This document shows positions 6,650 to 44,233 of a stretch of 64,000 bases of DNA, piece by piece; position 1 is the first letter of the stretch; each line of letters begins with the position of its first letter. Source of the DNA: Myxococcus stipitatus (GTDB taxonomy: Bacteria; Myxococcota; Myxococcia; Myxococcales; Myxococcaceae); assembly GCF_037414475.1 (NCBI RefSeq), contig NZ_CP147913.1:3100001-3164000 (forward strand), in the 5' to 3' direction. The position numbers and the translations under genes are program-made. The notes beneath the pieces were generated by a model that was not told where the DNA came from, did no database searches, and worked only from the letters and a program-made list of their open reading frames with translations.

Positions 6650-6658
6650 GTTCCCACC

Positions 6659-8221
6659 ATGATCCTGCCCAATCTCACCCTGGCAGACTTCCTCCCGCTG
6701 ATCCCCGCCATCATCCTGGCGGTGGGGGCCTGCGTCCTGTTGTTGTCGGAGGTGTTCCTCAGCGCCACCTCGTCGCGCTCGTATCAGGCGGTGCTCGCCG
6801 TGGTGGCGTCGGTGGCGGCTGGCGCCGTGGCCGTGACCTCCATGTTCGAGCCGGCGGGCGAGGTGTTCCTCGGCTTCGGCGTGATGGACCCGTTCTCCAG
6901 CTTCCTCACCTTCGTGGTGTGCCTGGGACTGGGGCTGGCGTCGCTCAGCTCCGTGAGCTTCCTGCGCAAGCGGGGCGCGGAGCGCGGTGAGTTCTACGCG
7001 CTGATGCTCTTCGCTGGCGCGGGCATGAGCCTGCTGGCGCTGTCCAACGAGCTCATCACCCTGTTCGTCAACATCGAGGTCCTCTCCATCGCGACCTACG
7101 CGCTGACGTCGTACCTGCGGCGCGGCACGCGGCCCTCCGAGGCGGGCTTCAAGTACTTCATCCTGGGCGCGTTCTCCTCCGCGGTGCTGCTGTACGGCGC
7201 GGCGCTGGTCTACGGCGCCACCGGCACCACCAAGCTGACGGCGATGGCCGGCCCCCTGGCGAGCGCGCTCGCCACCCAGCCCGCGCTGGTCTACACGGGC
7301 CTCATCCTCCTGGGCGCGGGCTTCGCCTTCAAGGTGGCCGCGGTGCCGTTCCACATGTGGACGCCGGACGTCTACGAGGGTGCCCCCACCCCCGTCACCG
7401 CGCTGATGAGCGCGGGTGTGAAGGCGGCGGCCTTCGCCGCGCTGGTGCGCGTGTTCCTCACGATGGGCAAGGGAATCGACCCGCACCTGCCCCTGGTGCT
7501 GTTCTCCACCATGGCGTTCCTCACCATGGTCGTGGGCAACCTGCTGGCGATTCCGCAGCGCAACGTGAAGCGCATGCTGGCGTACTCGTCCATCGCGCAC
7601 GCTGGCTACCTGCTGGTGGGCGTGGCGGCGCTCTTCGTCACCGCGCCGGGTGAGCAGTTCCGCCTCCTGGGCCCGTCCGAGCTGACGGGTGGCACTCCCC
7701 TGGAGCTGGCCCGCTCGCAGGCGCTGCGCGGCATCCTGTTCTACCTCCTGGCCTATACGTTCAGCGCGGTGGGCGCCTTCACCCTGGTGTCCGTGCTCGA
7801 GCGCCGCGAGGACGAGGAGAAGGGAACCGCGTGGGACCTGGAGCGCTTCAGCGGCCTCGCGCAGCGCCGTCCGGGTTGGGCGGTGGCCATGGCCGCGTTC
7901 ATGCTGTCCTTGGGCGGGATTCCTCCCACCATCGGCTTCATGAGCAAGCTGCTCATCTTCCAGAGCGCGGTGGACTCGGGCCTCATCGGCCTGGCCATCG
8001 TGGGCGTGCTCTCCAGCGCGGCGGGCGTCTATTACTACCTGCGCGTGGTGGTCTACATGTTCATGCGCCCGGTGCCCGAGGGCGCCCAGACGCTGGAGCG
8101 CAGCTGGTCCACCGAGCTGGCCCTGGTGCTCTCCACCGCGGGTGTCATCATCCTCGGCATCCTCCCCGGACCGCTCACCAGCTGGCTGGTGCAGGCCAGC
8201 AGCATCTTCAGCGGCCAGTAG
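6659..8221 (+). CDS. nuoN: NADH-quinone oxidoreductase subunit N
   Basis: NuoN is the third antiporter-like subunit of the complex I membrane arm. The 520-residue protein contains the family signature TPDVYEGAPTPVTALMSAGV with the following K-A-A-A-F-A segment, and the channel glutamate in LFVNIEVLSIATYALTSY. About 14 hydrophobic helices are apparent. It lies 9 bp after nuoM and is the last gene of the operon, followed directly by two GC-rich hairpins. Confidence 0.96.
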   Translation: MILPNLTLADFLPLIPAIILAVGACVLLLSEVFLSATSSRSYQAVLAVVASVAAGAVAVTSMFEPAGEVFLGFGVMDPFSSFLTFVVCLGLGLASLSSVSFLRKRGAERGEFYALMLFAGAGMSLLALSNELITLFVNIEVLSIATYALTSYLRRGTRPSEAGFKYFILGAFSSAVLLYGAALVYGATGTTKLTAMAGPLASALATQPALVYTGLILLGAGFAFKVAAVPFHMWTPDVYEGAPTPVTALMSAGVKAAAFAALVRVFLTMGKGIDPHLPLVLFSTMAFLTMVVGNLLAIPQRNVKRMLAYSSIAHAGYLLVGVAALFVTAPGEQFRLLGPSELTGGTPLELARSQALRGILFYLLAYTFSAVGAFTLVSVLERREDEEKGTAWDLERFSGLAQRRPGWAVAMAAFMLSLGGIPPTIGFMSKLLIFQSAVDSGLIGLAIVGVLSSAAGVYYYLRVVVYMFMRPVPEGAQTLERSWSTELALVLSTAGVIILGILPGPLTSWLVQASSIFSGQ

Positions 8222-8231
8222 GCCCAGCCCC

Positions 8232-8257
8232 AGCCACGGGCCTTGCGTCCCGTGGCT
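8232..8257 (+). terminator. first hairpin after nuoN
   Basis: A perfect 9-bp inverted repeat, AGCCACGGG and CCCGTGGCT, separated by 8 bases, begins 11 bp after the nuoN stop. No T-run follows directly, so it may act together with the next hairpin. It lies between convergent genes. Confidence 0.6.
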
Positions 8258-8262
8258 CACTC

Positions 8263-8303
8263 CGCCCGCCCCAGCCTCGTGCTCGGGCGGGCGTTGTCGT
8301 TTT
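8263..8303 (+). terminator. intrinsic terminator of the nuo operon
   Basis: CGCCCGCCC (8263-8271) pairs perfectly with GGGCGGGCG (8285-8293) and is followed by TTGTCGTTTT, the layout of a Rho-independent terminator on the plus strand. It sits between nuoN and the convergent GNAT gene and may stop both transcripts. Confidence 0.75.
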
Positions 8304-8321
8304 GGAAGGCTCCTCGGCCTG

Positions 8322-9176
8322 CTACGGCGACAGTTCGGGGAGCGCGCCACGCAGCTCGAAGGTCTCCAGGGAGACCTCCGCGCCCAGCTCACGCAGCCGC
8401 TGCTCGAGCGGCGCGTCATCCGTCACCACCACGTTCAGGGCTGGTTGGGACTCCCCCAGCAAGGAGAAGGCGCCTTCCATCAGCGCCCGGGCATGCCCGA
8501 GGGACGCGGCGAAGAAAGGGAAGAGCAACCGGCTTCCAGCGCGGAAGTCCATCAAGCCCAGGGGACTCGCTGACTCGCCGTCCTCGCGCACCAGCCGCAG
8601 CAGCCGGTGCGAAGACTGAGTCCCGAAGCGGGCCAGCTTGCCGGGCACCATCCGCCAGGTCTCCGTCAGCGGCTCGCAGTGGCTCGGCTCGAGGGGAACC
8701 ACCGCGAGGCCCGAGGGCACGGGCGGCAGCTGAGACAGGTGGGCTCGCGTCACCTTCAGGTTGGTGCCCCACCGCTCGCGCCGCATGCCCATGGACGTGT
8801 ACAGCCCGAGCGCCGCGACGTTGTCCCGCTTCACGTTGAGCACCCAATACTGGCACCCGTGAGCGCGGAGGCGCTGGGCTGCATGGCGCATCAACCACCG
8901 CCCCAGGCTCTGGCGACGCGCGAAGGGCGCCACCACGAGCTGCCCCACGTAGCCCCACGCCCCCATCACATCCGTCGTCAGGTAGCCGGCCACGCGCCCA
9001 TCCGGCCCCTCCGCGAAGCAGGTGCGAGAGGCCATGTCTTCCACCCACATCGACTCGGGAGGTGGCGGCTCCTCCAACCCGAGCTCCTTGAAGAGCCGCG
9101 CGTACGTCGCGTACTCGTCAGGGCGTCCAGGCCGCAGCACCCACGGGCACGGCAGGCTCCCCACATCCACCGCCAT
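8322..9176 (-). CDS. GNAT-family N-acetyltransferase, two-lobed
   Basis: This 284-residue protein carries a recognisable GNAT fold in its N-terminal half. The acetyl-CoA-binding stretch is ARRQSLGRWLMRHAAQRL, followed by the usual beta-strand/turn region with N-V-A-A-L-G-L-Y and MGMRRERWG. The C-terminal ~130 residues look like a second, degenerate GNAT lobe, a layout seen in tandem-GNAT enzymes. The acceptor substrate cannot be inferred. It is a single gene converging on nuoN, with a long leader region (9177-9599) upstream. Confidence 0.8.
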   Translation of the reverse strand: MAVDVGSLPCPWVLRPGRPDEYATYARLFKELGLEEPPPPESMWVEDMASRTCFAEGPDGRVAGYLTTDVMGAWGYVGQLVVAPFARRQSLGRWLMRHAAQRLRAHGCQYWVLNVKRDNVAALGLYTSMGMRRERWGTNLKVTRAHLSQLPPVPSGLAVVPLEPSHCEPLTETWRMVPGKLARFGTQSSHRLLRLVREDGESASPLGLMDFRAGSRLLFPFFAASLGHARALMEGAFSLLGESQPALNVVVTDDAPLEQRLRELGAEVSLETFELRGALPELSP

Positions 9177-9468
9177 CAGGCACTCCTTCGAGGAAGGTTG
9201 GAGTGAAGCCCGACGCGAGGCCTGTTCAAAGCCCGACGGTGCACAAAAGAAGGCGGCCCGACACTCCAGGGGAGGGCCGGGCCGCGGGTCTTCTGAAGGT
9301 GACTCACCGGAAGTGCTGAAGGGGTGGGGGGGAACCGCCTTCAGCCTCGCTTCGATGTGTCCCGCGGGAACCTATAGCAGTCGTCGTGCCACGAGACGTT
9401 TTGAGGCGAACACCCGTCTTTTCATGCACTTAGCGCTCTACCTAACCTTGTCCAACCTCGGCGATTGC

Positions 9469-9484
9469 ATTTCAGCCCTGAAAT
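9469..9484. promoter_or_regulatory. operator-like palindrome upstream of the GNAT gene
   Basis: ATTTCAG-CC-CTGAAAT is a perfect inverted repeat in the A/T-rich part of the region, about 290 bp upstream of the GNAT start. It is flanked by TTGCA-like half sites (GATTGC before, TTGCAATT after). This is the form of a dimeric repressor site, but no regulator can be named. Confidence 0.3.
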
Positions 9485-9561
9485 CGACTTGCAATTCTGA
9501 AAAGCCCCAATGATTCCGGCCACTTGAGCTTTTCACCGATGAAGAGGCGGTGGGGATCGAA

Positions 9562-9581
9562 ATCCAGGGGTGCGCCTGGAT
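9562..9581 (-). terminator. hairpin after the response regulator
   Basis: ATCCAGG and CCTGGAT form a perfect 7-bp stem with a 6-base loop 19 bp beyond the response regulator stop. On the minus strand it is followed by TTTC. It is a plausible weak terminator for the hslO-to-response-regulator run. Confidence 0.45.
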
Positions 9582-9599
9582 GCGACCTTGGGCGCCACC

Positions 9600-11041
<1,442 letters not shown>

Positions 11042-11045
<4 letters not shown>

Positions 11046-13558
11046 GGGAAGGAGGGGGGCTGCGAGAGGGGAAGCCGGAAGGTGAAGGTCGTACCGCGAC
11101 CCGGAATGCTATCCACGGCGATTTCGCCGCGGTGCTCCTCGAGGATGCGTTTGACGACAGCCAGGCCCAGGCCGGTGCCCTGGGCCTTCGTGGTGAAGAA
11201 AGGTTCGAAGACGCGGTGGAGCAGCTCGGCGGGAATCCCCGGCCCCTGGTCCGCCACGTCGATGCGCAGCTGCTCGCGGCCCGCATGGGCCTCACGGCGA
11301 GCCCGCACCTGCACCCGCCCGCCGTGCGGCATGGACTGAATCGCGTTGACGGCCACGTTGACGAGCGCCTGGCGGATGAGCCGCCGGTCCATGGGCACGG
11401 GCGGCAGTCCCGGCTCCACCTCCGAGTCGATGTGGACAGGCCGGTCCGGTGCCCCACCCTGCACACGCGCCGCCTCCAGTGAGTCCTGGAGCACGCGGCT
11501 CAGGTCCTCGTGCTGAAGCACCGGGTCCCTGGGACGGGTGTAGTCGAGCAGGTCCCCCACCATGCGGTTGAGACGGTCGCTCTCCTCACCCAGGATGTCC
11601 AGCAACATGGCCGCGTCTCCCGCGGGCTCCAAGAGCCGGCGCAGCGACGCCACCGCGTTGAAGATGACCCCGAGGGGATTGCGCACCTCGTGGGCGACGA
11701 TCGCGGACAGCTCGCCCAATGCGGCCAACCGCTCGCGCTTCACCATCTCCGCGCGCGTGGCGGCCAGCTCCGCGTAGCTGGCCCACAGCGATTCATACAG
11801 GCGCGCGTTGGCGATGGAGAGCGCGAGCTGGCCACAGGTGGCCTCCGCGAGCTCCACCAGCTCCGGACCGAAGGGACGCGCGCGGCGCGTATCGTCCACC
11901 AGCACCACGCCGATGAGCTCCTCGCGCGAGGTGAGCGGCAACGCCAGCAGCGCCTTCTCTCCGAAGCGCTGCACCAACTGCGCGTTGAAGCCCTCACCCG
12001 CGGACGCCACGTCCTCGATGGCCACGGGCCGCCGCTCTCGCGCCGCGCGGGCCGCCACGGTGTCGCTGCCCAGTGACACCGTCACCGTGCGGAAGAAGTC
12101 CCGATGCGCCGCCGACGCCGCCGCGCCCCGGAGCGCCTTGGAGCTCTCGTCGTAGAGCATGATGTAGCAGTTGGACACGTCCAGCAGGTGGACGAGGAAG
12201 TCCGACGCCACGTCGAGGATGCTCGAGGTCTCCAGCACACCCGACGTGGTGCGCGCCAGGTCCAGGAGCAGCCGCGTCTCGGTGAGCTGGCGCGCGGACT
12301 CCGAGCGCAGCCGGCGCTGCTCCAGCAGCGTCATCAACAGCTCCGCCAGCGTCCCCAACAGCCGCACGTCCCGCGCGTCGAAGGACCGCCCGGGCGCGCG
12401 CAACACCTGGAGCACACCGCACACCTCGCCGCCGCGAGCCAGCCGCACCGCCGCGCCACTGCCCAGCGTTCCCCTCGAGGCCTCGGACAGGAGCGAGCCC
12501 TCGGCCGCATTGCCCAGGTTGCCATCCAGCGCGTCAGGCACCGACGCCCCCATCACCCCGCCCAGCCGCTCGACATCCCCGCCCGGCCCCACCGCCTCCG
12601 CCAGGCCCACGTGGGCCGACAACACCAGCGGCCCCTTCGGGCCCTGCGTCAAATGCAGCGCCGCGGCCTCCGCGAGGAGCAGCTCCGACACTCGCGACAA
12701 GAAGTCCTCGGGCGTCGGAGGAATGGGCCGCGCCACGAAGCGCGCCATCTCCGCGACGGCGCCCACTTCCCACCGGCTGCGCGTGCCATCCGCCTGCACG
12801 CGAGCATCCGCCAGCGCCGCCTCCACCACCTTCGCGAAGAGCGTCAGCACCGAGCCATGGCGGGGCGCCACCCACGGGCCCTCCACCCGCAACACCTCCA
12901 CCTGCGGCCCGCCCACCGGCAGGTACACATGCGTGGGCGAGGCCAGCTCCGCCCCACCGAACACGGGGCGCCCGTCCGACAGCGCCTCCAATCCCAGGTG
13001 CACGTCAACAGGCGGCAAGCCTCCGTCGAGCGCGTTCAAACGCAGCCCATCCCAACGGAAGAGGCGTCCTCGAAAGCCCGCGGCCTCCAGGCCCTTGAGC
13101 GCCACGCGGCGCACCGCCTCTTCCGAGTGCGCGGAGACCAGGCCCGCGGACGTCTCCACCAGGCGCTCCGCCATGGACAGCTCGGCGGGCCGGTCCGACA
13201 GGGGCAGCAGGTTGAGCAGCAGCGCCTTGCGTCCACCCTCCAGGGGAACATGGGACGCGAAGAGGGCCACCTCGCGCGTGACGCCGTTCGCGGAGGGCAC
13301 CTGGTAGATTTGCGTGCTCCGGTCCATCGGCACGCCCGACTCCAGCAGGCGATAGCGCTCACTGAGCCGGCTGCGCTCCTCCGGCTGGACGAAGTCCATG
13401 ACGGGGCGCCCCTCCACCCTCTCCCGGGGAAGCCCCAGGAGCGCCAGGTAGGCGTCATTCGCCGCGCACACCCGTCCGTCCACCACCGCGAGCACGGGGT
13501 TGTCGAAGGGCTCAAGGAGGGCGCGCAGGGACGCCTCGTTGTGTGGCTTCGTGCTCAT
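11042..13558 (-). CDS. soluble PAS-GAF-GAF sensor histidine kinase
   Basis: The 838-residue kinase has no obvious membrane helix, so it should sense a cytoplasmic signal. Domains in order are a PAS fold (about 15-110), two GAF-like regions (about 285-410 and 430-585), a dimerisation/phosphoacceptor helix with H623 in IVAHEVRNPLGVIF, and a HATPase domain with N-box, G1 box DQGPGIP, F-box FEPFFTT and G2 box GTGLGLAVV. The ATG overlaps the selB stop, and the kinase stop overlaps the response regulator start, making a tightly coupled two-component pair. The ligand is unknown. Confidence 0.93.
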
Positions 13559-22797: not shown

Positions 22798-23259
22798 ATG
22801 CGAGCCGTGGTGCAGCGGGTGCTGGAAGCGTCGGTGACGGTGGATGGGCAACGGGTGAGTGACATCGGCCCCGGCCTGCTGGTGCTCCTGGGCGTGGGCA
22901 AGGGTGACACCGAGGCGGACGTGGCGTGGATGGTGGAGAAGCTGGCCACCTTGCGCATCTTCGAGGACACCGCCGGGAAGATGAACCTCTCGCTGGAGGA
23001 CACCTCCCGCCAGCTCATCGTCGTCAGCCAGTTCACGCTCTACGGCGACGCACGAAAAGGGCGGCGCCCCAGCTTCATCGACGCGATGGAGCCTGCTGCC
23101 GCCAAGGCCCTGTATGAGCGCGCCTGCGAGAGCCTCCGGCAGCGCGGGCTGAGCGTGGGCACCGGCATCTTCGCCGCGGACATGAAGGTGGCCCTCGTCA
23201 ACGACGGCCCCGTCACCCTCGTCCTGGAGAGCCCCGGCCCCGCGGCGCCCAAGCCCTAG
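22798..23259 (+). CDS. dtd: D-aminoacyl-tRNA deacylase
   Basis: DTD hydrolyses D-amino acids (and misacylated glycine) from tRNA. The 153-residue protein begins [17 protein letters not shown] and shows both family signatures: [17 protein letters not shown] and the Gly-cisPro motif [11 protein letters not shown]. The frame is open far upstream through sequence antisense to dacB, but the ATG at 22798 gives the standard length and N-terminus. Its stop shares a CTAG tetramer with the convergent downstream gene. Confidence 0.96.
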
Positions 23260-24101
23260 ATGCGGACGCTGGTGCCCTTGGTGACGAGCGCGGCCAGGCC
23301 CTGCTTCCCCAGCGCCGCGCGGCGGATGTGGGACGTCAGCGCGCCCAGCTCCCGAATCCAGTGGGCCGCTCGAGGCCCCAGCCCCGAGAACGCCACCGTC
23401 AGCGGGGGCGGCTGGGCCTGCTTCCCCAGCCAGTAGCCCAGCACCTCGTCACGCTCGGGCAGCGACGGCAGGCGCATCCGCTCCTGCTCGCGCAGCATCA
23501 ACCGCTCCAGCTTGCGCGGCAGGTTCACCTGCCAGTGCGCCACCGCGCGCGCGGGCCTCCAGGCCCAGTCCGCGAAGGCGAAGCGCTCCGAGGGGAAGTA
23601 CTCGCCCCGGCCCTGGGTGCTGAAGACGCGGTCCGGAGGGAACTCGGGGAAGGGGTCCCAGTGCCCCGCCAGCAGCGAGGCCAGCCCCATGTCCGCCAGC
23701 GGCCGGAAGCGGAAGCCATCGCGCACCTCGCGGGCGCCCCGCGGGTCCCAGTAGGGGTAGTTGGGCTCCTCCAGCATCAGCGCCAGGTGCAGCGCCTCGT
23801 CCCAGGCATCCGCGTAGCCCGCCTGGTCGCCCCCGACCTCCCAACCCGCGGCGCCCTCCTTCCAGGACAGGAAGGCCAGCCTATCCACCAGGTCCGCCCA
23901 GGGGTCCGCGTCCACGGAGCCCAGGCCGCCGGGCAGCGCCGTGGAAAGCATGCGCTCGCACAACATGCGCGAGTGCCCGTCCCCCAGGGAGTCCAGGAGC
24001 GACTCCAGGGCCCCGCTCGCGTCGCCCATGGCGCGCGCGAGGAACGGCAGCACCTGCTCGTGGAAGAACCGGTCGTTGATGGGCCGCAACACCACGTCCA
24101 T
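23256..24101 (-). CDS. uncharacterised protein (281 residues)
   Basis: I do not recognise this family. The product is soluble, rich in Trp, Pro, Leu and Arg, with no signal peptide, membrane helix or obvious catalytic motif. The N-terminal part is acidic and helical ([20 protein letters not shown]), and the centre carries a Trp/Pro-rich stretch ([26 protein letters not shown]). Strong G/C bias at third positions and close spacing (23 bp) behind ptsN support it as a real, co-transcribed gene. The immunity-like or enzyme roles one might guess from composition are not supported. Confidence 0.75.
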
Positions 24102-34397: not shown

Positions 34398-37013
34398 TCA
34401 CGGTTCGACGGCGGGCGCTCGCGAGTCGCCCAGCAGGTGCTCCAGCTCCTGCGCATTCGGGTCGTCCACCAGCTCCTTGCGACGCGTCTCCACCCGGGTC
34501 CGCTCGGCGGACTCCAGCCGCGTCACCCAGGCGCGCGCGGACTCGCGCCCGTCCGGCGGCAACAACTCCAGGCCCTCGCGCACGGAGCGCGCCGCCGCGT
34601 CATAGCGACGCAATGTCTCTTGCAACCGAGCTACCGCGAAGAAACCCTCCGCGCTGGGCACCAGCCGCGCCGCCGTCTGGCGCCGCTCCACCGCGCGGGA
34701 CAGGAGCCCCTCGCGCTCGAGCGCCTCCGCCTCCATCGACAACATCCGCGCCCGCTGACGGTAGTCCGTGAGGAGGCTCCCCACGACATGGAGCGTCTCA
34801 CGAGCCCGCCGCGTCAGCCCCGCCTCGAGCTGCCAGGAGGCCACGGTGAAGGCCAGCTCCACGTCCATGGAGTGCCGCGCCCGGAGCCCCTCCACGGCTC
34901 GCAGCGCGGCCTCGTGCTCCCCGCGCCCCCGCAGCACCTCGGCGCGCAGCAGCGCCGTCTCCAACCGCTCCGACTCGAGCCGCTCCACCTGCGCGCACGC
35001 CGCCTCGGCCTCCTGCAATTCCTTTCGACCGAGCCGCAGCCGCGTCTCGCGCGTCCACAGCCCCACCACACCCGGGCGGCCATCGAAGTGCGCCCTCGCC
35101 CAGGCGTTGTAATCCAGCGCCAAGGGCACGCGGCCGAGGGCCTGGCTCAACACATCCACGAACTGGCCCGCCACCTCCGGTGAGTCCGGCGTCATCGCCA
35201 CCAGGTCCTCCACCGAGCGCGCCCGGCGCACCGCCTCACCTCGGAGCACACCCAGGTCACCTGCCTGGTATGCGAGCCGGTACTCCAGGAAGCCTTGCGA
35301 GCGGCGCCCCATTGACAGCAACGCGTCCGCGGCCACTCGATGCGATACGGCGTCCTGCGGGGCCAGGGCCAGCGCGCGGTTGATGAAGGCCAGCGCCTCG
35401 CCCGCGCCGTCACCGCCTCGTGCCGCGTGTGCGGAGGCCACCAGCCGGTACAGCAGATAGTCCGACGGATGCCGGTCGATGAGCTCCAGTCCTCGAGCGC
35501 GCACCGTGTCGATGGGTGCGCGCTCCCGGACGAGCGTCGCCAGCTCCGCCTCCGCGTCCTCGAGCCGATGCGCCCCGGGCACCAGGGCCACGAGCCCCAC
35601 CACCGTCAGCGCGACGCCCACGCCCCCAAGCGCCCACGAAGGCGAAAGACACACCTGGGGCCCCGTCTCCTTGCCGCGCTCCCGAGGCCGCGCCACCGAC
35701 CCCAGCACCACCAGCACCGCCACCGCGCAGGCCGGGAGCTCCAGGCTGAAGTCGAAGAGGTTGTGCAGTCCCAGCGCCGCCACGCCCGCCAGCGAAGCCC
35801 ACTCCAGCGCGTCCAGTCCCTCGCGGCGCAGCAAGCCGATGAAGGCCCACACGGCCACGGCCAAGAGCAGCAGACCGGGCACACCGAACTCCGCCAGCGC
35901 CTGGAGCACCGCGTTCTCGGGATGCGTGAGCGTGTTGGGATTGGGCTCGGATTGATAGCGCGGGAAGGCCGCCTCGAACGCACCGCGCCCCATGCCCAGC
36001 ACTGGGAAGGCGCTGGCGGCTCGCGCCATCATGGGCCAGAGCGACACCTTGGACTGGCTCAACTTCTCCAGGCTGTCCGCGGAGCGCGCCTCGGCCCAGA
36101 GCGCGTCCGTCACGGCGTAGGCCCCCACGGCCAGCACCGCCAACAACCCCATGAGCGCGGCGGTGCTCCGCGTCCAACCGTGGTGGAGGTTCCCTCTCGA
36201 CTCTTCTCGGCGCTGGCGCGCGAGCCACAGCACCAGCAGCACCTGCCCGAAGACGAAGAAGGCGATACCTCCGCGAGACAGCGACAACACCACGCCCAGC
36301 CCGCTCACCCCCGCCGCCAACGCGAAGGGCAGCGCCTTCGAGCGGGGCCGCGTGGTGAGCGCCAACCCCACGCCCACCGTGGACGCCAGGCCCAGGAAGC
36401 CCGCGAGGTGATTGGGATTGGCGAAGAACGTCATCAGCGGCGGGCGCGCGTGCTCCCAGGCCCTGAACCCCAGGAGCGAGGAGACACCCAGCAGCGCATG
36501 CCCCATGCCCACCAGCACCACCGCCGCGCCCGTGAAGGCCACCACCGCGAGGAGCCGCCGCCGGCTCTCCCTCGACCGGCTCACCTGCACCGCGGCGAGG
36601 AAGGTCAACAGATAGGCCAGGTGCTTGGACAGCTCGCGCCACGTGGCCGAAGGCTCCAGCGACACCGGCCGCGCCCCCGTGAGCCCCAAGGGCTCCAACG
36701 CGAACTCCCGCAGCGAGGCGGCCTCCGGACTCAGCACCCGCAGCACCCCCTCCGGCAGGGGCACGAGTTGCACCGCGCACAACACCGCGCCCACACCCAG
36801 GGGCACGGCGAGCAGCGGGACTCGCAACGACTGCCCCATCCGCCTCGCGCCGATGAACGCGAACAGCGCCGCCATTCCCGCGAGCACCATCAACGGCCAG
36901 GACACCCCACGCGCCGCGCCACCGAGCGCCAGCGGACACACCACGACGAGCGCCGCCAGACCTACTTCGGCGAGCCGGGTGTACCGGGAGCTGTTGCGAG
37001 ACGCGGAAGCCAT
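34398..37013 (-). CDS. O-antigen ligase/polymerase (Wzy/WaaL) fused to TPR-like C-terminal region
   Basis: The 871-residue protein has about ten transmembrane helices in its first ~440 residues with the Wzy_C-type periplasmic loop (SLSRGGIAFFVFGQVLL, then FPVLGMGRGAFEAAFPRY and HPENAVLQALAEFGVPGLL). The C-terminal ~400 residues are soluble helical repeats of TPR character (EALAFINRALALAPQD, AEAACAQVERLESERLETA). It should polymerise or ligate a lipid-linked glycan at the outer face of the inner membrane. By position beside rpoN and the glycan locus it may correspond to the Myxococcus biosurfactant-polysaccharide polymerase; this is from memory. Confidence 0.87.
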   Translation of the reverse strand: MASASRNSSRYTRLAEVGLAALVVVCPLALGGAARGVSWPLMVLAGMAALFAFIGARRMGQSLRVPLLAVPLGVGAVLCAVQLVPLPEGVLRVLSPEAASLREFALEPLGLTGARPVSLEPSATWRELSKHLAYLLTFLAAVQVSRSRESRRRLLAVVAFTGAAVVLVGMGHALLGVSSLLGFRAWEHARPPLMTFFANPNHLAGFLGLASTVGVGLALTTRPRSKALPFALAAGVSGLGVVLSLSRGGIAFFVFGQVLLVLWLARQRREESRGNLHHGWTRSTAALMGLLAVLAVGAYAVTDALWAEARSADSLEKLSQSKVSLWPMMARAASAFPVLGMGRGAFEAAFPRYQSEPNPNTLTHPENAVLQALAEFGVPGLLLLAVAVWAFIGLLRREGLDALEWASLAGVAALGLHNLFDFSLELPACAVAVLVVLGSVARPRERGKETGPQVCLSPSWALGGVGVALTVVGLVALVPGAHRLEDAEAELATLVRERAPIDTVRARGLELIDRHPSDYLLYRLVASAHAARGGDGAGEALAFINRALALAPQDAVSHRVAADALLSMGRRSQGFLEYRLAYQAGDLGVLRGEAVRRARSVEDLVAMTPDSPEVAGQFVDVLSQALGRVPLALDYNAWARAHFDGRPGVVGLWTRETRLRLGRKELQEAEAACAQVERLESERLETALLRAEVLRGRGEHEAALRAVEGLRARHSMDVELAFTVASWQLEAGLTRRARETLHVVGSLLTDYRQRARMLSMEAEALEREGLLSRAVERRQTAARLVPSAEGFFAVARLQETLRRYDAAARSVREGLELLPPDGRESARAWVTRLESAERTRVETRRKELVDDPNAQELEHLLGDSRAPAVEP

Positions 37014-37368
37014 GCGGGGGCGCGGAAAGTATGACACGGGCTTTGAAACACTCTGCTTTCTGGCTCGAAGCCCTCGGCCGGCAGCAGACAGGGCCTCCGG
37101 GCGAGTGTGAACCCCTTCGCGCCGCGATGCCTCCAAGGCCGTATCAGGGTCAGGACAACCCGGTCTCTCCCGACCTCCGAACGGCCCGCACGGACAGCCC
37201 CACGTCGAGTGATGGAACCTTCCCCTCCCCGGAGCGCTGCGTCGAAGCGCCAGGCCCTCCAAGGGCCCTGGAGTCAGGCCGGGCAAGCGGGCCCGACCCC
37301 CCGTTCATTCACGCCCAGGCCCGGAGTTGGCTTGCATCCGGAAGACCTTCTGGCATGTTCGCCGACCC
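37014..37368. other. divergent intergenic region
   Basis: A 355-bp gap between the divergent Wzy/TPR gene and the small lipoprotein gene. No ORF is convincing. The part next to the Wzy gene (about 37030-37075) is A/T-richer than its surroundings and reads GTCATACTTTCC on the minus strand, where CATACT could serve as a -10 element. Nothing else is recognised. Confidence 0.4.
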
Positions 37369-37673: not shown

Positions 37674-38840
37674 TCACGCCCCTGGCGCCACCGAAGTCCT
37701 TGGCGTTCCCGCTTCCGCGGCGACCCAGGGCTGCAGCCTCTTGCGCACCCGTGAGCGCAGCGGCGTCTCCACGAAGTGGTGCGCTAGCAGGGACGCGGGG
37801 ATGACCAGGAGCAACACCAGCCCCAGCTTCCCCCACGACGAAAGCCACGGCTCGAGCTTCGCCACCGCTTCGCCCACGGGGAACTGCAACAGATACAGCG
37901 CGTAGCTGGCCGCCCCCAACCGCACCACGCTCGGGCGCGACAAGCCCCAGCCCAGCCAGCCACCACCCCGCGCCAGCCCGTACACGAGCAGCCCCGACGC
38001 GGGCGCCAGGAGCGCGTTGTGCATCAGCGGATAGGGAATCCGCTCACCCGCCGCTCCCGCCGCCATGAGCAACGCGGCGCCGAGCAAGGCCAGCGCTCCT
38101 CCCGAGCCCTTCGCCTCCCCCGCCGCGCGCTCACGCACGAAGCACCACCCCAGCACCACACCGAAGAGGAACTCGGGCAGGCGCGTCAGCGGGGTGAACT
38201 TCATCAGCGCAAGCCACGTGCCCCACGAATGGACATCCACCGTGTCCAGGCCATCCGGCCGCAGCACCAGGTAGAGCAACGGCGGTGCCAGGCCGAGAAT
38301 CCACAGCCCCGCGAGCACCCCCGGCATCCAGGAGGGCCGCAGCCGAGGCAGCCACCGCGCCAGCCGGGGGAAGAGCGCGTAGAAGAACGCCTCCACCGCC
38401 ACGGACCAGCCCGGGGGATTCCAGTACAGCGCCAGCCGGGGCATCCACGCCTGCAACAGCGCGAGCGTCGCCACCGCCGCCACGGCCAGCTTCATCGCAG
38501 CCACCTTCCACCCGTTGTCCACCACGGACGCGAGCATCGTGGGCGGCGCGGACAGGAGGAACGTCAGCAGATAGACGGGATAGACGCGGGCCACCCGGGC
38601 CGCGAGGAACGCGCGTGTCCCCGTCTCCATGCGCCCGTCGGTGTCCAGGTAGTTCCAGGCGAGGACAAAGCCAGACAGGACGAAGAAGACACCCACGGCC
38701 GAGTAGCCCGAGCCCACCAGGCTCCGCAGCCACTCCGGCGCCGGGTCCAGGACCGGGCGCGCGAAGTGGAACAGCACGACATGCAGGGCCGCGAAGAAGC
38801 GCAGCCCCGTCAGCGCATCGAGTGAACCGCCTCGGCTCAC
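37674..38840 (-). CDS. membrane acyltransferase (acyltransferase_3 family)
   Basis: The 388-residue integral membrane protein with about ten helices matches the acyltransferase_3/OafA family that O-acetylates or otherwise acylates glycans. The N-terminal motif LDALTGLRFFAALHVVLFHF has the conserved His used by these enzymes. The GTG at 38840 overlaps the ugd stop (GTGA), so it is translationally coupled to ugd and should decorate the same glycan. Upstream in-frame codons are antisense to ugd and excluded. Confidence 0.88.
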   Translation of the reverse strand: MSRGGSLDALTGLRFFAALHVVLFHFARPVLDPAPEWLRSLVGSGYSAVGVFFVLSGFVLAWNYLDTDGRMETGTRAFLAARVARVYPVYLLTFLLSAPPTMLASVVDNGWKVAAMKLAVAAVATLALLQAWMPRLALYWNPPGWSVAVEAFFYALFPRLARWLPRLRPSWMPGVLAGLWILGLAPPLLYLVLRPDGLDTVDVHSWGTWLALMKFTPLTRLPEFLFGVVLGWCFVRERAAGEAKGSGGALALLGAALLMAAGAAGERIPYPLMHNALLAPASGLLVYGLARGGGWLGWGLSRPSVVRLGAASYALYLLQFPVGEAVAKLEPWLSSWGKLGLVLLLVIPASLLAHHFVETPLRSRVRKRLQPWVAAEAGTPRTSVAPGA

Positions 38841-40138
38841 CGGCGGCCGATGCCGAAGTACGTGAAGCCCAGCTCGCGCATGCGCGCCGGGTCGAACACG
38901 TTGCGACCGTCGAAGATGACCGGCGCCTTCATCAGCGCCTTCATGCGCTCGAAGTCCGGGTGGCGGAACTCGTTCCACTCCGTCACCACGAAGAGCGCGT
39001 CCACGCCCTCGAGCGCCTCGTAGGGGACGCTGGCGTAGCGGATGCGGTCGCCGAAGACGCGCTTCGCCGAGTGCGTGGCCACCGGGTCGTGCGCCACCAC
39101 CGTCGCGCCCTTGCCGATGAGGCCCTCGATGACGTCGATGGACGGCGCCTCGCGCATGTCGTCCGTCTTCGGCTTGAAGGCCAGGCCCCACACGCCGAAC
39201 TTCTTGCCCTCCAGTGAACCGCCGAAGTGCTTGGTGGCCTTGTTCACCAAGAGCTTCTTCTGCCGCTCATTGGTGCGCTCCACGGCGCGCAGCAAATCCA
39301 GCTCCAGGCCGAACTCGCGCGCGGTGGCGCCCAGCGCCTTCACGTCCTTGGGGAAGCACGAGCCGCCGTAGCCCACGCCCGGGAACAGGAACGGGTAACC
39401 GATGCGCCGGTCCGAGCCCAGGCCCTTGCGCACGAAGTCCACGTCCGCGCCCACCTTCTCGCAGAGCGCGGAGATGTCGTTCATGAACGAGATGCGCGTG
39501 GCGAGCATCGCGTTGGCGGCGTACTTGGTCAGCTCCGCCGAGCGCGTGTCCATGAACAGCACCGGGTTCTCCGTGCGCACGAAGGGGGCGTACAATTCGC
39601 CCATCACCTTGCGCGCGCGCTCGGAGTCCACGCCGATGACGACGCGGTCCGGCTTGAGGAAGTCGTCCAGCGCGGCGCCTTCCTTGAGGAACTCCGGGTT
39701 GGAGACGACGTCGAACTCGATGCTCGTCACCTTGCGGATGCTCTCGCGAACCTTGTCCGCGGTGCCCACCGGCACGGTGCTCTTGTCGACGACGACCGTG
39801 TACTGCTTCATCGCCTTGCCAATCTGCTCGGCGGCGGCCAGCACGTACTGGAGGTCGGCGTCGCCGCTCTCACCCTCGGGCGTGCCCACGGCGATGAAGA
39901 CGACGTGCGCGTTGGAGACGGCCTCCGGCAAGTCCCGCGTGAAGAACAGGCGCTTCTCGCGCACGTTCTTCTTGATGAGCTCCTCGAGACCCGGCTCGTA
40001 GATGGGCACCTCGCCCGCCTGGAGCATGCGAATCTTCCGCTCGTCGATATCCACGCACGTGACGTCGTTGCCCGAGTCCGCGAAGCAGGTGCCCGCGACC
40101 AGGCCGACGTAGCCCGTTCCGATGATGGCAATACGCAT
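38837..40138 (-). CDS. ugd: UDP-glucose 6-dehydrogenase
   Basis: Ugd oxidises UDP-glucose to UDP-glucuronate with two NAD. The 433-residue enzyme shows the NAD-binding MRIAIIGTGYVGLVAGTCFA, the catalytic Lys204 and Asn208 in AELTKYAANAMLATR, and the nucleophile Cys261 in GVGYGGSCFPKDVKAL. All key residues are intact. It provides an acidic sugar precursor for the surrounding glycan genes and is coupled to the downstream acyltransferase. Confidence 0.97.
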   Translation of the reverse strand: MRIAIIGTGYVGLVAGTCFADSGNDVTCVDIDERKIRMLQAGEVPIYEPGLEELIKKNVREKRLFFTRDLPEAVSNAHVVFIAVGTPEGESGDADLQYVLAAAEQIGKAMKQYTVVVDKSTVPVGTADKVRESIRKVTSIEFDVVSNPEFLKEGAALDDFLKPDRVVIGVDSERARKVMGELYAPFVRTENPVLFMDTRSAELTKYAANAMLATRISFMNDISALCEKVGADVDFVRKGLGSDRRIGYPFLFPGVGYGGSCFPKDVKALGATAREFGLELDLLRAVERTNERQKKLLVNKATKHFGGSLEGKKFGVWGLAFKPKTDDMREAPSIDVIEGLIGKGATVVAHDPVATHSAKRVFGDRIRYASVPYEALEGVDALFVVTEWNEFRHPDFERMKALMKAPVIFDGRNVFDPARMRELGFTYFGIGRR

Positions 40139-40239
40139 TGAAAGAGTCCCAGTGTGGCGGTGTCTTGGCTGGAACTCATACGCCGGGACGCGCTCGGAAA
40201 GAAAGCCCGTCCCAGGGCTGGCCGGGCAACCGGGCGGGC

Positions 40240-41211
40240 CTACTGTCCAGTGAGCAGACGCCGCACTCTTTCCAATCCCTTGAGAGCCGACGTCTGCCCG
40301 GGGGTGCTGATTGGACCCACCACCGTGCGGTCTAGAAGTTCACGGGTGGCTCGGCGCAGGGGAGGCAGCGCGGCGGTGGCGTCCGGGGCGGCCTCGGGGA
40401 AGAGGCGGGCGACGATGGACAGCGACGTGTAGAGGGCGCGCTCCAGGCGCCACTCGGAGGCGCGGGCGAGCAGCGCCGGGATGTCGAGCGGGCGGGAGTA
40501 CACACCCCCCATCCACTTGGCGCCCGTGACAAGTTCGCGAAGGTCGATGAAGGACAGCCAGGGTACGTCATACCCCTGACGTGCGTGCTCCAGGCAGACG
40601 AGCAGGACGGAGTCCTCGAGGTCCGCGCGGAACATGGAGGGCCCGTAGACCTTCATGGGTTTCGCGCGGTCGATGATGCCCAGGGCCTGCTCGCGGCGCT
40701 GGGGGCCGAGGATATCGGAGTAGAGGGAGATGGAGGTGCGGCCGTCGGTGACGACCTTGGTGGCGCCGCTGTGCGAGGGGACCGAGTCGGGGCGGAACTC
40801 GTGGTTGGAGAGGAAGCCGGCGAAGCCGTCCACGTCCATGCGGCGCATGAGGAGCTGGAGGTCGAGGACAGGGCGGAAGCCGATGTGCGGGTAGAGGGCC
40901 TCGGCGAAGGCGGCGGCGCCCATGAGAACGAGCTTGCGGCCCTGGAGCTCGTCGACGACCTGCTTGAAGTTGACGAGCTTCATCACGTTGTCGTTGACGG
41001 AGCCCTGGTAGACGGCGAGGAGCCGGTCACGAGCCCACTCGGGGGCGGCGGTGGGGCCCAGGCGGTACTCGAGGTTGTAGGCGGCGAGCGGCGCCAGGCC
41101 CTGGGCGATGGCCCAGTCGACATACTCATCCCAGGGCGCGCCCTTGAGGGCACCTCGCGGAGGGTCGAACGAGGCGAGGACGCGGAAGGTGTCGAGCAGG
41201 CTGAGCGGCAT
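40240..41211 (-). CDS. nucleotidyltransferase-fold protein (PF14907-like), catalytic residues degraded
   Basis: The 323-residue protein aligns with its neighbour at 41723-42745 around KLVLMGAAAFAEALYP and RPVLDLQLLM. In the neighbour this block reads LLKGYGLSRRLYP and RDVDLLV, the nucleotidyltransferase signature. Here the Lys before Gly is Met97, and the second Asp of the DxD pair is Gln119 (Asp117 remains), so it may be a non-catalytic partner. The ATG at 41211 is the first in a conserved context (MPLSLLDTFRVLASFD). It lies in the glycan block, minus strand. Confidence 0.72.
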   Translation of the reverse strand: MPLSLLDTFRVLASFDPPRGALKGAPWDEYVDWAIAQGLAPLAAYNLEYRLGPTAAPEWARDRLLAVYQGSVNDNVMKLVNFKQVVDELQGRKLVLMGAAAFAEALYPHIGFRPVLDLQLLMRRMDVDGFAGFLSNHEFRPDSVPSHSGATKVVTDGRTSISLYSDILGPQRREQALGIIDRAKPMKVYGPSMFRADLEDSVLLVCLEHARQGYDVPWLSFIDLRELVTGAKWMGGVYSRPLDIPALLARASEWRLERALYTSLSIVARLFPEAAPDATAALPPLRRATRELLDRTVVGPISTPGQTSALKGLERVRRLLTGQ

Positions 41212-41318
41212 GGTGGCCCCCTTTAACGGGCTCACCGCATGGCCTGCAATCACTGCCTGAGTCCCCCGGGGCGCGGACAGTGGCGGACACCGGACAGTGC
41301 CCGGCCCCCGAGTGCGAC

Positions 41319-41621
41319 TCAAAGGGCCCTCAGCCACTCCTCAATCAGCCCTCCCCATTCCGCCCGGATGAAGGCCATCAACGCCAGGTACGGGATGACG
41401 GACAACGCACAGGTCAAGAGCCAGAGGAACGCGAAGAGTTGATGGTGACGCGCGCGGATGGGGCCCTTCGCGAAGAAGTACCGGCTCAACTCGCTCGAGC
41501 GTCGAGGCAGCCGCCCGACAATCGCGGCCCCTCCGAAAATCCGCGCGCCCGCGACTCCCATCAGGGCGCCCAGGAAAGCCCCGGTCCCCATCACCCCTGA
41601 GAACAGTGCTTCGAGTGTCAT
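41319..41621 (-). CDS. small membrane protein of unknown function
   Basis: The 100-residue product from the ATG at 41621 (GGAG nine bases upstream) has two hydrophobic regions: a Gly/Ala-rich N-terminal helix (LFSGVMGTGAFLGALMGVAG) and a stronger one near the C-terminus (LFAFLWLLTCALSVIPYLAL). They are joined by a basic loop (GRLPRRSSELSRYFFAKG). An upstream ATG at 41681 adds 20 residues but lacks a ribosome site. It sits between two nucleotidyltransferase-fold genes in the same direction; no family recognised. Confidence 0.6.
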   Translation of the reverse strand: MTLEALFSGVMGTGAFLGALMGVAGARIFGGAAIVGRLPRRSSELSRYFFAKGPIRARHHQLFAFLWLLTCALSVIPYLALMAFIRAEWGGLIEEWLRAL

Positions 41622-41722
41622 CGTGCTGCTCTCCGTCACATCCGGCGCAATGACACTACCTTGGGGACCCTCCATCTTCATCCGTCATGGGGGCAGAGAG
41701 TGGAGGCACTGTAGCGAGTGAC

Positions 41723-42745
41723 TTAACGCCCCTCTCTGAACGCGGTCTCCAGGCGACGCAGGGCATAGCGCGCCATCGCGGTGGGCTTGGGTGCCAGGAG
41801 CAGCTTCGCGGCGACCCAGGCGGGCTTGCTGTGCACGAGCTCCGCGCCCACCAACCGCGGCTCCGTGAAGAAGCGCTCCGCCAGGATTCGCTGCCACACA
41901 GGCGGAGCCAGCGCTGACAGCACCGTATCCGGAACGGTTGCCCCGAGCAGCCGCCTCGCGGCGTCCCAGGCGTACCAGACCATCAGCGGCAGCTCCGTGC
42001 CCTGGGCTCTTTCGACCACTCGAGCCCAATCCAACGCGTGCCCCGCGAGCAGCTTCAAATCGAAGAGCCACGCCATCCGCTGCAAGAGGTGATTGCTCGC
42101 GTGCAGCGCCAGGTACACGGCTTCGTCCTCGGGGCGCAGCCACTTCACACGACGCCCCTCGAGTTCACCCTCCGCCGCTCGCGCCACCAGCGCATCACCC
42201 TCCAACGCCTGCCCCCATCCCGCGAGCGCTCGGAAGTGCAACTCCACGAGCCCCGCTGGCCCTTCCATCTCGATGTGGTGTGAGTCGGCCTCCGCGTACT
42301 TTCCATCACGCGAGGCTCGGACGGTCAGCCCCAATCCCGAGAGGGCTCGCGTCGCCGTGGGCACATCATGGCGCGACACCAACAGGTCCACGTCTCGCGT
42401 CGCACGCTGGAGCGGATCCGGATACAGCCTCCGCGACAACCCATAGCCCTTGAGCAACACAGGCACCACGCCCTCGGAGGCCAGGGCGTCCAGGCTCCGC
42501 AGCAACAGCGCCTTCACCTGGAGCACACGCGCCGCGCCCGTGAGCGACTCCCTGCGCAGCAACGCGCTCGCATCCGTGGGCAACTCCCAACCCACCTGCC
42601 CCACCGCATGGGCCACGAAACCCGCCAGCCCGTGACGTACGGCCGCGCGCACGAACTCGGTGGCCGCGGCCCCCTCGGGCGCACGTGTGTCCGGTGGCAA
42701 CGGCCAGGACCGCAGCAAGTCCACGAGGGCGTGCGAGCCCGCCAT
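41723..42745 (-). CDS. uncharacterised nucleotidyltransferase (PF14907-like), motifs intact
   Basis: The 340-residue protein shows the nucleotidyltransferase-fold signature PVLLKGYGLSRRLYPDPLQR followed by ATRDVDLLV (Lys99, Asp118, Asp120), typical of the uncharacterised NTP_transf_5 group found in polysaccharide and peptide-modification clusters. The middle carries HHIEMEGPAGLVELHFRAL and HASNHLLQRMAWLFDLKLL, also seen in the group. The reaction is not established for the family. The gene starts 3 bp after the PHPT gene, so the two are almost certainly co-expressed. Confidence 0.8.
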   Translation of the reverse strand: MAGSHALVDLLRSWPLPPDTRAPEGAAATEFVRAAVRHGLAGFVAHAVGQVGWELPTDASALLRRESLTGAARVLQVKALLLRSLDALASEGVVPVLLKGYGLSRRLYPDPLQRATRDVDLLVSRHDVPTATRALSGLGLTVRASRDGKYAEADSHHIEMEGPAGLVELHFRALAGWGQALEGDALVARAAEGELEGRRVKWLRPEDEAVYLALHASNHLLQRMAWLFDLKLLAGHALDWARVVERAQGTELPLMVWYAWDAARRLLGATVPDTVLSALAPPVWQRILAERFFTEPRLVGAELVHSKPAWVAAKLLLAPKPTAMARYALRRLETAFREGR

Positions 42746-42748
42746 TGC

Positions 42749-44233
42749 TCAGCGCCTCAAGACAACAACCCGCGCGGGGTCCGCGTCGGCGAGCGCGAGC
42801 AGCCGCGAGGAGCGCTCGGCCACCGCGTCCGCCACCAACTCCAGGGCCAGTTCTTCATCGCGGCTCGTGCCGTTGCGTCCGTTGGACCATGCCAGCGACA
42901 ACGCACCAATCACCACGTCCCCGTCCTTCACATCGAGGCGCAGGTCGAACGACAGCGATTGGCTCGGGGCACGCTGAGTCTCGAAGACGATGCCCTCGGT
43001 GAGCTCGTCCCGGACGTGCTGGAAACGAAGCTCGAGCCTCGACACCTCGAGTCCGTCCGCCAGCGCTCGGACCGCGTTCCAGACCTCTTGCAAGGAGCGC
43101 GCGGCACGGACCGACGCGGAGACTTCCTTCACCAGCGAACGCAACCGGATGTTGCGCTGACGGGCCTGCTGCATGTCCCCGGCGCGCGCCAGGTCCAGGT
43201 AGCCCAGCTTGCGCATCAACACCACGATGACCACGCCCATGCCGCTGAGCAGCAGTGCGCTCTGCACGCTGTTGGCGAAGTTCAAGCCCAGCGCCGTCAA
43301 CGTGAAGAGTCCGCACAGCCCATAGAGCACCAACACCGTGGAGCGGTGGCTGAGCACCATGCGGCTCATGATGCGGTGGTGGATGTGCTCCTTGTCCGCG
43401 CTGAACAGCGGGCGCCCCATGAGCGAGCGGCGCACCACGGCGAGCAGCGTGTCCATGATGGGCAGGCCCAACGCCATCACGGGCACGAGCATGGCCACGG
43501 CCGTGCCGCTCTTGGTGCTCGTCTTGATGGACACGGCCGCAAGCACGAAGCCCAGGAACATGCTGCCCGTGTCCCCCATGAAGATGGAGGCCGGGTTGAA
43601 GTTGAACACCAGGAACCCGAGGATGGCGCCCGCGAGCGCCGCCATCAGCAGGCACAGCAGGATGTCCCCTCGGGCGAGCGCGAGGATGAAGTTGGTGCTG
43701 ACGCCGAAGAAGGCGACGCCACCCGCGAGCCCATCCAGACCATCAATCAGGTTGAGCGCGTTGACGACGCCCACCATCCAGAACACGGTGAACGGCAAGC
43801 CGAGCACGCCCAGGGACAACTCCGGGCCGAAGGGATTGGCGATGACCTCGATGCGGAAGTCGAGGGCATACAGGCCGAGCGCCACCAGGAACTGCACCGT
43901 GAACTTGAGCCGGGCGTTCGCGCCGCGAAGGTCGTCATAGAGCCCGAGCGCCGCGATGGCCGCGCCGCCCAGGAAGAGGCCGTAGACGAGCTCCGTGTGG
44001 AGGCGGAAGTGATGCCCCACGCCGGAGTCCACGAGGAACAGCGCGCACAGCGGGGCGAAGAAGCCCGCGACGATTCCGATTCCACCCAGCCTCGGAATGG
44101 GCCGGACATGGACCTTGCGGCTGGAGCTGACCGGGTCCATCCACCCCCGGGCACGGGCCTGATTGCGCACGAAGTACGTGAGCAACAGGGCCACCGCCAG
44201 AGAGAGAAGGAATGCGACGAAGAACGTGATCAT
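42749..44233 (-). CDS. polyprenyl-phosphate N-acetylhexosamine-1-phosphate transferase (WecA/MraY family) with GAF-like C-terminus
   Basis: The enzyme moves a HexNAc-1-phosphate from a UDP-sugar to undecaprenyl phosphate, the first step of glycan repeat assembly. Family motifs are all present: HVRPIPRLGG (42-51), Asp100-Asp101, NLIDGLDG (161-168), GDTGS (220-224) and HIHH (283-286). WecA proteins end near residue 360. Here about 130 more residues follow, with an alpha/beta pattern and a closing helix (SRDEELALELVADAVAERSS) resembling a GAF domain. The ATG at 44233 opens the first membrane helix. Confidence 0.9.
   Translation of the reverse strand: MITFFVAFLLSLAVALLLTYFVRNQARARGWMDPVSSSRKVHVRPIPRLGGIGIVAGFFAPLCALFLVDSGVGHHFRLHTELVYGLFLGGAAIAALGLYDDLRGANARLKFTVQFLVALGLYALDFRIEVIANPFGPELSLGVLGLPFTVFWMVGVVNALNLIDGLDGLAGGVAFFGVSTNFILALARGDILLCLLMAALAGAILGFLVFNFNPASIFMGDTGSMFLGFVLAAVSIKTSTKSGTAVAMLVPVMALGLPIMDTLLAVVRRSLMGRPLFSADKEHIHHRIMSRMVLSHRSTVLVLYGLCGLFTLTALGLNFANSVQSALLLSGMGVVIVVLMRKLGYLDLARAGDMQQARQRNIRLRSLVKEVSASVRAARSLQEVWNAVRALADGLEVSRLELRFQHVRDELTEGIVFETQRAPSQSLSFDLRLDVKDGDVVIGALSLAWSNGRNGTSRDEELALELVADAVAERSSRLLALADADPARVVVLRR

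Follow-up and report, generated by a model that had tools for sequence, protein, structure and literature searches.

The analysed window, a 64,000-nt stretch of DNA to which all coordinates refer, carries on its minus strand, in the order PNPT, A, T, B, Ugd, acyltransferase and Wzy_C protein, the following features (evidence in brackets):

42749-44233, minus strand: PNPT, WecA/MraY-type (PF00953), 494 aa (Pfam, 137.6 bits)
41723-42745, minus strand: gene A, PF14907, 340 aa, with an intact motif (Pfam, alignment, AlphaFold model)
41319-41621, minus strand: T, a 100-aa two-helix membrane protein between A and B (ORF analysis, distribution)
40240-41211, minus strand: gene B, a degenerate PF14907 protein, 323 aa (Pfam, alignment, AlphaFold model)
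40139-40239, minus strand: the B-Ugd spacer (alignment, promoter and terminator scan)
38837-40138, minus strand: Ugd, a nucleotide-sugar dehydrogenase of UDP-glucose 6-dehydrogenase type (TuaD-like), 433 aa, the neighbour of B (profiles, synteny)
37674-38836, minus strand: acyltransferase, PF01757 (Pfam, synteny)
34398-37286, minus strand: Wzy_C polymerase/ligase-type protein, PF04932 (Pfam, synteny)

The open reading frame listed for B runs from 41337 to 40240; relatives align from an ATG at 41211, which conservation marks as the true start and which gives the protein of 323 aa. The listed acyltransferase frame extends to 39191, overlapping Ugd, and its true start probably lies downstream of Ugd. 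Matches to the Wzy_C protein begin near residue 85 in most relatives, so its true start is probably internal.

The initiating enzyme upstream of A, described as a PHPT in a sequence-only reading of this DNA, contains PF00953 only and has no PF02397 domain in Pfam. It is a WecA-type polyisoprenyl-phosphate N-acetylaminosugar-1-phosphate transferase (PNPT) that starts the repeat unit, with a match to the NCBIfam WecA-like model that falls below the cut-off. After the WecA-type domain a C-terminal extension of ~155 residues (42749-43230) has no Pfam match, and is GAF-like in appearance by eye. The PNPT, acyltransferase and Wzy genes are ordered as in the biosurfactant polysaccharide (BPS) Wzx/Wzy locus of Myxococcus xanthus (MXAN_1025-1052; PMC7484181, PMC7310880), and M. 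xanthus AM003 (L121) has them arranged likewise about A, B and Ugd. By synteny the locus is of the BPS type and its PNPT orthologous to that of the M. xanthus BPS locus, in keeping with the link to glycan synthesis first drawn from the sequence; the wider gene content varies from lineage to lineage. MXAN_1043, MXAN_1049 and MXAN_1052 are described in PMC7484181, neither A nor B is discussed in the passages on the BPS locus in these two papers, and nothing useful on PF14907, NTP_transf_5 or MXAN_1044-1051 was found in the literature searched.

Folds and active sites of A and B

Both A and B match PF14907 (NTP_transf_5) over its full length, at 133.8 and 90 bits respectively against a curated Pfam cut-off of 31.2 bits, and the original description of two such proteins flanking a 100-residue membrane protein stands. 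NCBIfam holds no names for A, B or T, a sequence search of solved structures returned no relative of A or B, and no established reaction for PF14907 was found in the literature searched. The AlphaFold models of A (pLDDT 91.0, pTM 0.90) and B (pLDDT 91.9, pTM 0.92) show the nucleotidyltransferase (MNT/pol-beta) fold, and both match solved nucleotidyltransferases with a Foldseek probability of 1.00. The best solved-fold match is MenT1 (VIA-align Z 12.9, rmsd 2.9 and 176 aligned for A; Z 12.2, rmsd 3.2 and 175 aligned for B), followed by ANT(2'')-Ia, LnuA and MenT3/4. A and B differ from these closest solved folds (the MenT/AbiEii-like proteins, ANT(2'')-Ia and LnuA) in having less than 20% identity to them, extra N- and C-terminal helices and a polysaccharide context, with no toxin-antitoxin arrangement seen. 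FKRP, a LicD-like alditol-phosphate transferase, has a nucleotidyltransferase-type core and performs phospho-transfer from CDP-alditol to glycan; it has no shown sequence relation to A, and its weak fold match (Z 5.5), no better than unrelated folds can score, is a lead only. Weak matches of the models to VOC/fosfomycin proteins were not taken as relatives.

The active-site motif of A comprises K99-G, R114, D118, D120, E168-x-H170 and D229. Its Lys99-Gly and Asp118/Asp120, picked out on first reading, are confirmed by Pfam and alignment, and its third acid is Glu168 of a VELH motif. K99, G100, R114, D118, D120, E168, H170 and D229 are invariant in 17 A orthologues; the Lys and both Asp are kept in 13/13 A and in 23/23 other Myxococcota PF14907 proteins, with Glu or Asp as third acid in all, and the whole catalytic motif (Lys-Gly, Arg, Asp-x-Asp, third acid-x-His) is the same in the 23 other members except for one Gly to Ser. 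Judged by its residues A looks active. It would be a metal-dependent nucleotidyltransferase-fold enzyme. Motif, fold and gene order suggest that its probable task is to attach a nucleotidyl or phospho-substituent to the lipid-linked repeat unit that the adjoining PNPT initiates.

B shares the full-length family match and the fold but not the three features (Lys, second Asp, third acid) kept by A and the other Myxococcota members. The protein in the window has no Lys, keeps the first Asp (D117), and carries Gln (Q119) in place of the second and Ser in place of the third acid. Among 31 B orthologues, positions 97 (L18 F5 V4 M2 I2) and 98 (G24 D4 S2 A1) are never Lys, position 117 holds Asp or Glu throughout, position 119 varies (R17 Q9 H2 S2 E1), and position 162, equivalent to Glu168 of A, is never acidic; the combination of Lys, second Asp and third acid that marks a catalytic member is found in 0/31. 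The sequence-only reading numbered the residues correctly, was right about Asp117/Gln119 and the missing Lys, and erred in equating Met97 with Lys99 of A: gap-free anchoring on the Y-P....R segment places Gly98 there. The loss of the third acid adds to the changes it had listed, making the degeneracy stronger than stated. As the loss is clade-wide, whereas A and other Myxococcota members keep the residues, chance is excluded, and the evidence supports B as a bona fide degenerate (pseudo-)nucleotidyltransferase-fold protein. B has invariant polar residues of its own, namely H109, R113, D/E117, E199, D223, R225 and E226; the positions of R113 and D223 are conserved throughout PF14907, and some of the set may be structural.

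Selection, distribution and phylogeny of B

B is under purifying selection. Its dN/dS is 0.07-0.22 against four relatives, compared with 0.15-0.35 for A, and its dS is 0.18-0.36 versus 0.48-0.81 for A, less than half the value for A and closer to that of its neighbour Ugd. The frame is open, without stops, in all listed family genomes, and B is single-copy in 92/96 family genomes, even in those of 2.1-2.7 Mb. The loss of catalytic residues might in itself point to a decaying pseudogene or neutral remnant, but this is contradicted by such selection and retention; we reject the idea, to which we attach next to no probability.

Outside this family, B is present in 22/24 genomes of the Anaeromyxobacter-like family f3 and occurs patchily in f6-f9; searches of f2, f4, f5 and the rest of the phylum did not find it. 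A phylum search outside the order gave one weak match only, a canonical PF14907 member, and scanning the species-genome collection for the signature returned myxobacterial loci only, bar mislabelled or loosely named records. Record BNCN01000002.1 (L129), labelled Comamonas sp. KCTC 72670, contains a myxobacterial locus with the same gene order and 66-93% protein identity, and is probably a mislabelled genome.

In the PF14907 tree, rooted by midpoint only, all B sequences are monophyletic (support 100/99) and A lies on a separate branch, the split (95/90) having catalytic relatives on both sides. The simplest history is that catalysis was lost once in B, in an ancestor within the order, and not through duplication of A. 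A recent duplication is rejected both by this placement and by the similarity of the two proteins, which reaches a BLASTP E of 0.009 only.

Two gene couples and the neighbourhood of B

Two conserved gene couples meet at this locus. The first is PNPT-A: A directly follows PNPT in 21/23 named loci that have A, one exception being at a contig edge and the other L144. The second is B-Ugd. Among 57 named loci, 56 of which have room downstream of B, Ugd lies directly downstream (<200 bp, same strand) in 41/56 and within 3 kb in 3 more; UbiA takes the directly downstream position in 6/56, and neither Ugd nor UbiA is found in 6/56. Anaeromyxobacter PSR-1 is among the loci with an Ugd or UbiA neighbour. 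The B-Ugd gap is ~90-140 bp in Myxococcus, Corallococcus, Archangium and relatives, and where a genome (G034) has three Ugd-like genes the best match is the one beside B. The Ugd protein reaches 458.6 bits against TIGR03026, the general nucleotide-sugar dehydrogenase profile (cut-off 189.8), and 547.4 bits against NF047673 (TuaD), under the cut-off of 700; because the latter is not reached, UDP-glucose is given here as its putative substrate. The spacer between B and Ugd is conserved in Myxococcus and Corallococcus, where CTTTCTTTC followed by GGCGTATGAG forms a promoter-like segment, possibly Ugd's own promoter. It also holds a weak terminator-like hairpin (40219-40204), the terminator count being not above shuffles; in the promoter and terminator scan as a whole, signals were at or near shuffle level.

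Basal Myxococcaceae assemblies show a wider arrangement, i.e. GT2, polysaccharide deacetylase, Ser/Thr kinase, FHA/sigma54 activator, B, Ugd and UbiA, with spacers of tens of bases around B. The UbiA genes beside B in basal genomes score 260.3 and 255.6 bits against NF008977 (cut-off 234), a profile that assigns them to the decaprenyl-phosphate phosphoribosyltransferase type. In L146, L148, L151 and L155 (about 4500-13300) the cluster of deacetylase, kinase, FHA/sigma54, B, Ugd and UbiA is conserved, which suggests a phosphorylation-controlled polyprenyl-phosphate sugar pathway. Relatives in Anaeromyxobacter can have a GT2-methyltransferase before B, or a GT2 and a DUF2304 protein separating B from Ugd. 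Three reduced f1 genomes (G084-G086) keep B and give no Ugd match at E 1e-80; together with the six named loci that have neither Ugd nor UbiA beside B, they show that Ugd cannot be the only partner of B. In reduced 2.1-2.7 Mb Cystobacterineae (L099, L100, L165, L167) B is accompanied by a Ser/Thr kinase, an FHA/sigma54 activator, a TPR protein and a KpsF-like gene, with no Ugd. Its place beside the kinase and activator in those of the reduced f1 genomes that were read indicates a role wider than Ugd alone.

Partners and possible roles of B

The sequence-only reading joined A, B and T as an active enzyme, a pseudoenzyme partner and a membrane subunit. T is a real-looking ORF, with a GC content by codon position of 0.62/0.51/0.81 and two hydrophobic segments, and it is 56% identical to its G070 counterpart at a dN/dS of ~0.45. 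It lies between A and B in only 3/92 family genomes, i.e. the window and two close relatives, weaker relatives of T occurring elsewhere in a few genomes of the same genus. T is an incidental, lineage-specific local insertion, and we reject it as a subunit of any module. A and B for their part are not a dedicated pair. They are not sisters in the tree; within the family they can be as close as 61 bp or as far apart as ~57 kb, and the genes separating them change, while B and Ugd stay ~90-140 bp apart in the genera named above; and A is absent or kilobases from B in many genomes. One of the two conditions that the sequence-only reading set for its own refutation, a lack of adjacency elsewhere, is thus borne out. 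Indeed B is the only PF14907 match in G143, G148, G085 and G086 (completeness 94-99%) and in five less complete genomes, and in G001, G034 and G035 it is joined only by weak matches of ~30 bits or less. An obligate complex of the three proteins, for which the gene order of the window and its two relatives speaks, is excluded by this distribution, i.e. by B without another PF14907 protein, the variable A-B distance and the rarity of T, and its probability is very small. A looser association, in which B would be a secondary partner of A in a facultative heterodimer at Myxococcus-type BPS loci and work alone elsewhere, is quite improbable. It is favoured by the closeness of the genes, which are <200 bp apart in 15 of the 57 named loci and <10 kb apart in 8 more, with both on one strand of a shared polysaccharide locus. 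Against it, the A-B interval differs in length and gene content from genome to genome, each gene has a steady neighbour of its own (PNPT beside A, Ugd beside B), and co-location is to be expected when both couples belong to one locus. Treating the neighbours A and B as a dedicated pair is tempting but wrong, and is corrected here. In the locus L049 (G063) the variable A-B interval holds a second A fragment downstream of A (5120-5431), a C-terminal part with 63% identity.

Conserved, confined to the order and linked to Ugd, B is a pseudo-nucleotidyltransferase that has been kept as a single-copy gene after losing the Lys, the second catalytic Asp and the third acid. As the metal-binding acids and Lys are gone, B most likely works without nucleotidyl transfer. 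We tentatively favour a reading in which the PNPT-A and B-Ugd couples meet in a BPS-type locus and B is a non-catalytic helper of sugar-nucleotide or lipid-linked-sugar supply together with Ugd, although somewhat more of the probability lies elsewhere. B would then bind a ligand and serve as a regulator or scaffold in the supply of sugar nucleotides or polyprenyl-phosphate sugars, together with or close to the UDP-sugar dehydrogenase Ugd, on which it would act physically or by regulation. This is consistent with the confident, intact fold, the loss of the motif in 31/31 and the adjacency to Ugd in 41/56. A precedent is EcpK, a tyrosine pseudokinase of M. xanthus EPS synthesis proposed to be a scaffold (PMC12004946). 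It has been retained in a Wzx/Wzy pathway without the catalytic activity of its enzyme family, as B probably has, though with a kinase fold, a PCP partner and no sequence relation; it shows that dead enzymes serve polysaccharide pathways of this kind in M. xanthus. In the eukaryotic MiD51 and MAB21L1 a nucleotidyltransferase fold whose active site is altered or silent serves to bind nucleotides or protein partners (PMC4897736); they belong to another subfamily, and the comparison with B is functional only. The helper reading is weakened by the genomes and loci in which B lacks Ugd, by the conserved promoter-like segment between B and Ugd in Myxococcus and Corallococcus, and by the invariant H109, R113, D/E117, D223, R225 and E226, which also fit a different chemistry.

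That different chemistry is the main rival. B could be a re-purposed enzyme whose site has been rebuilt around D/E117, H109, R113 and D223-x-R225-E226 for another transfer, e.g. glycosyl or phospho-transfer from a UDP-sugar that Ugd supplies. In its favour, the residues named vary little or not at all among B proteins of different families, B is conserved more than A, and the neighbours include glycosyltransferases, Ugd and the phosphoribosyltransferase-type UbiA; PsmN, which is annotated as a nucleotidyltransferase and attaches hexoses to a lasso peptide that carries a phosphate (review PMC9266682), offers a possible analogy. However R113 and D223 are family-wide and so some of the residues may be structural, and a position 119 that is R, Q, H, S or E, with a freely variable third-acid position, would be unusual for a metal site. 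We consider this rebuilt enzyme rather unlikely, if deserving of serious attention. A sharper form of the helper reading, which we put forward as an unlikely conjecture, is that the disarmed site of B serves as a sensor for a nucleotide or nucleotide-sugar and that B controls the committed step to UDP-uronate catalysed by Ugd, with links in ancestral operons to both an FHA/sigma54 activator and a polyprenyl-phosphate pentose branch. If this is so, such a sensor acting over Ugd would be a new kind of regulator in bacterial glycan precursor supply. More strongly conserved than its active relative despite the apparent loss of catalysis, this branch offers a direct way into the use of the fold in glycan loci, and the near-constant neighbour Ugd in a genetically tractable group makes dead-enzyme control of myxobacterial sugar-nucleotide supply a testable question.

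One further protein encoded in the window (23259-24101) belongs to an unnamed family with no NCBIfam match, and its homologue in L153 has no Pfam match. A homologue of this protein directly follows UbiA near B in basal genomes; here the gene lies 16 kb from B.
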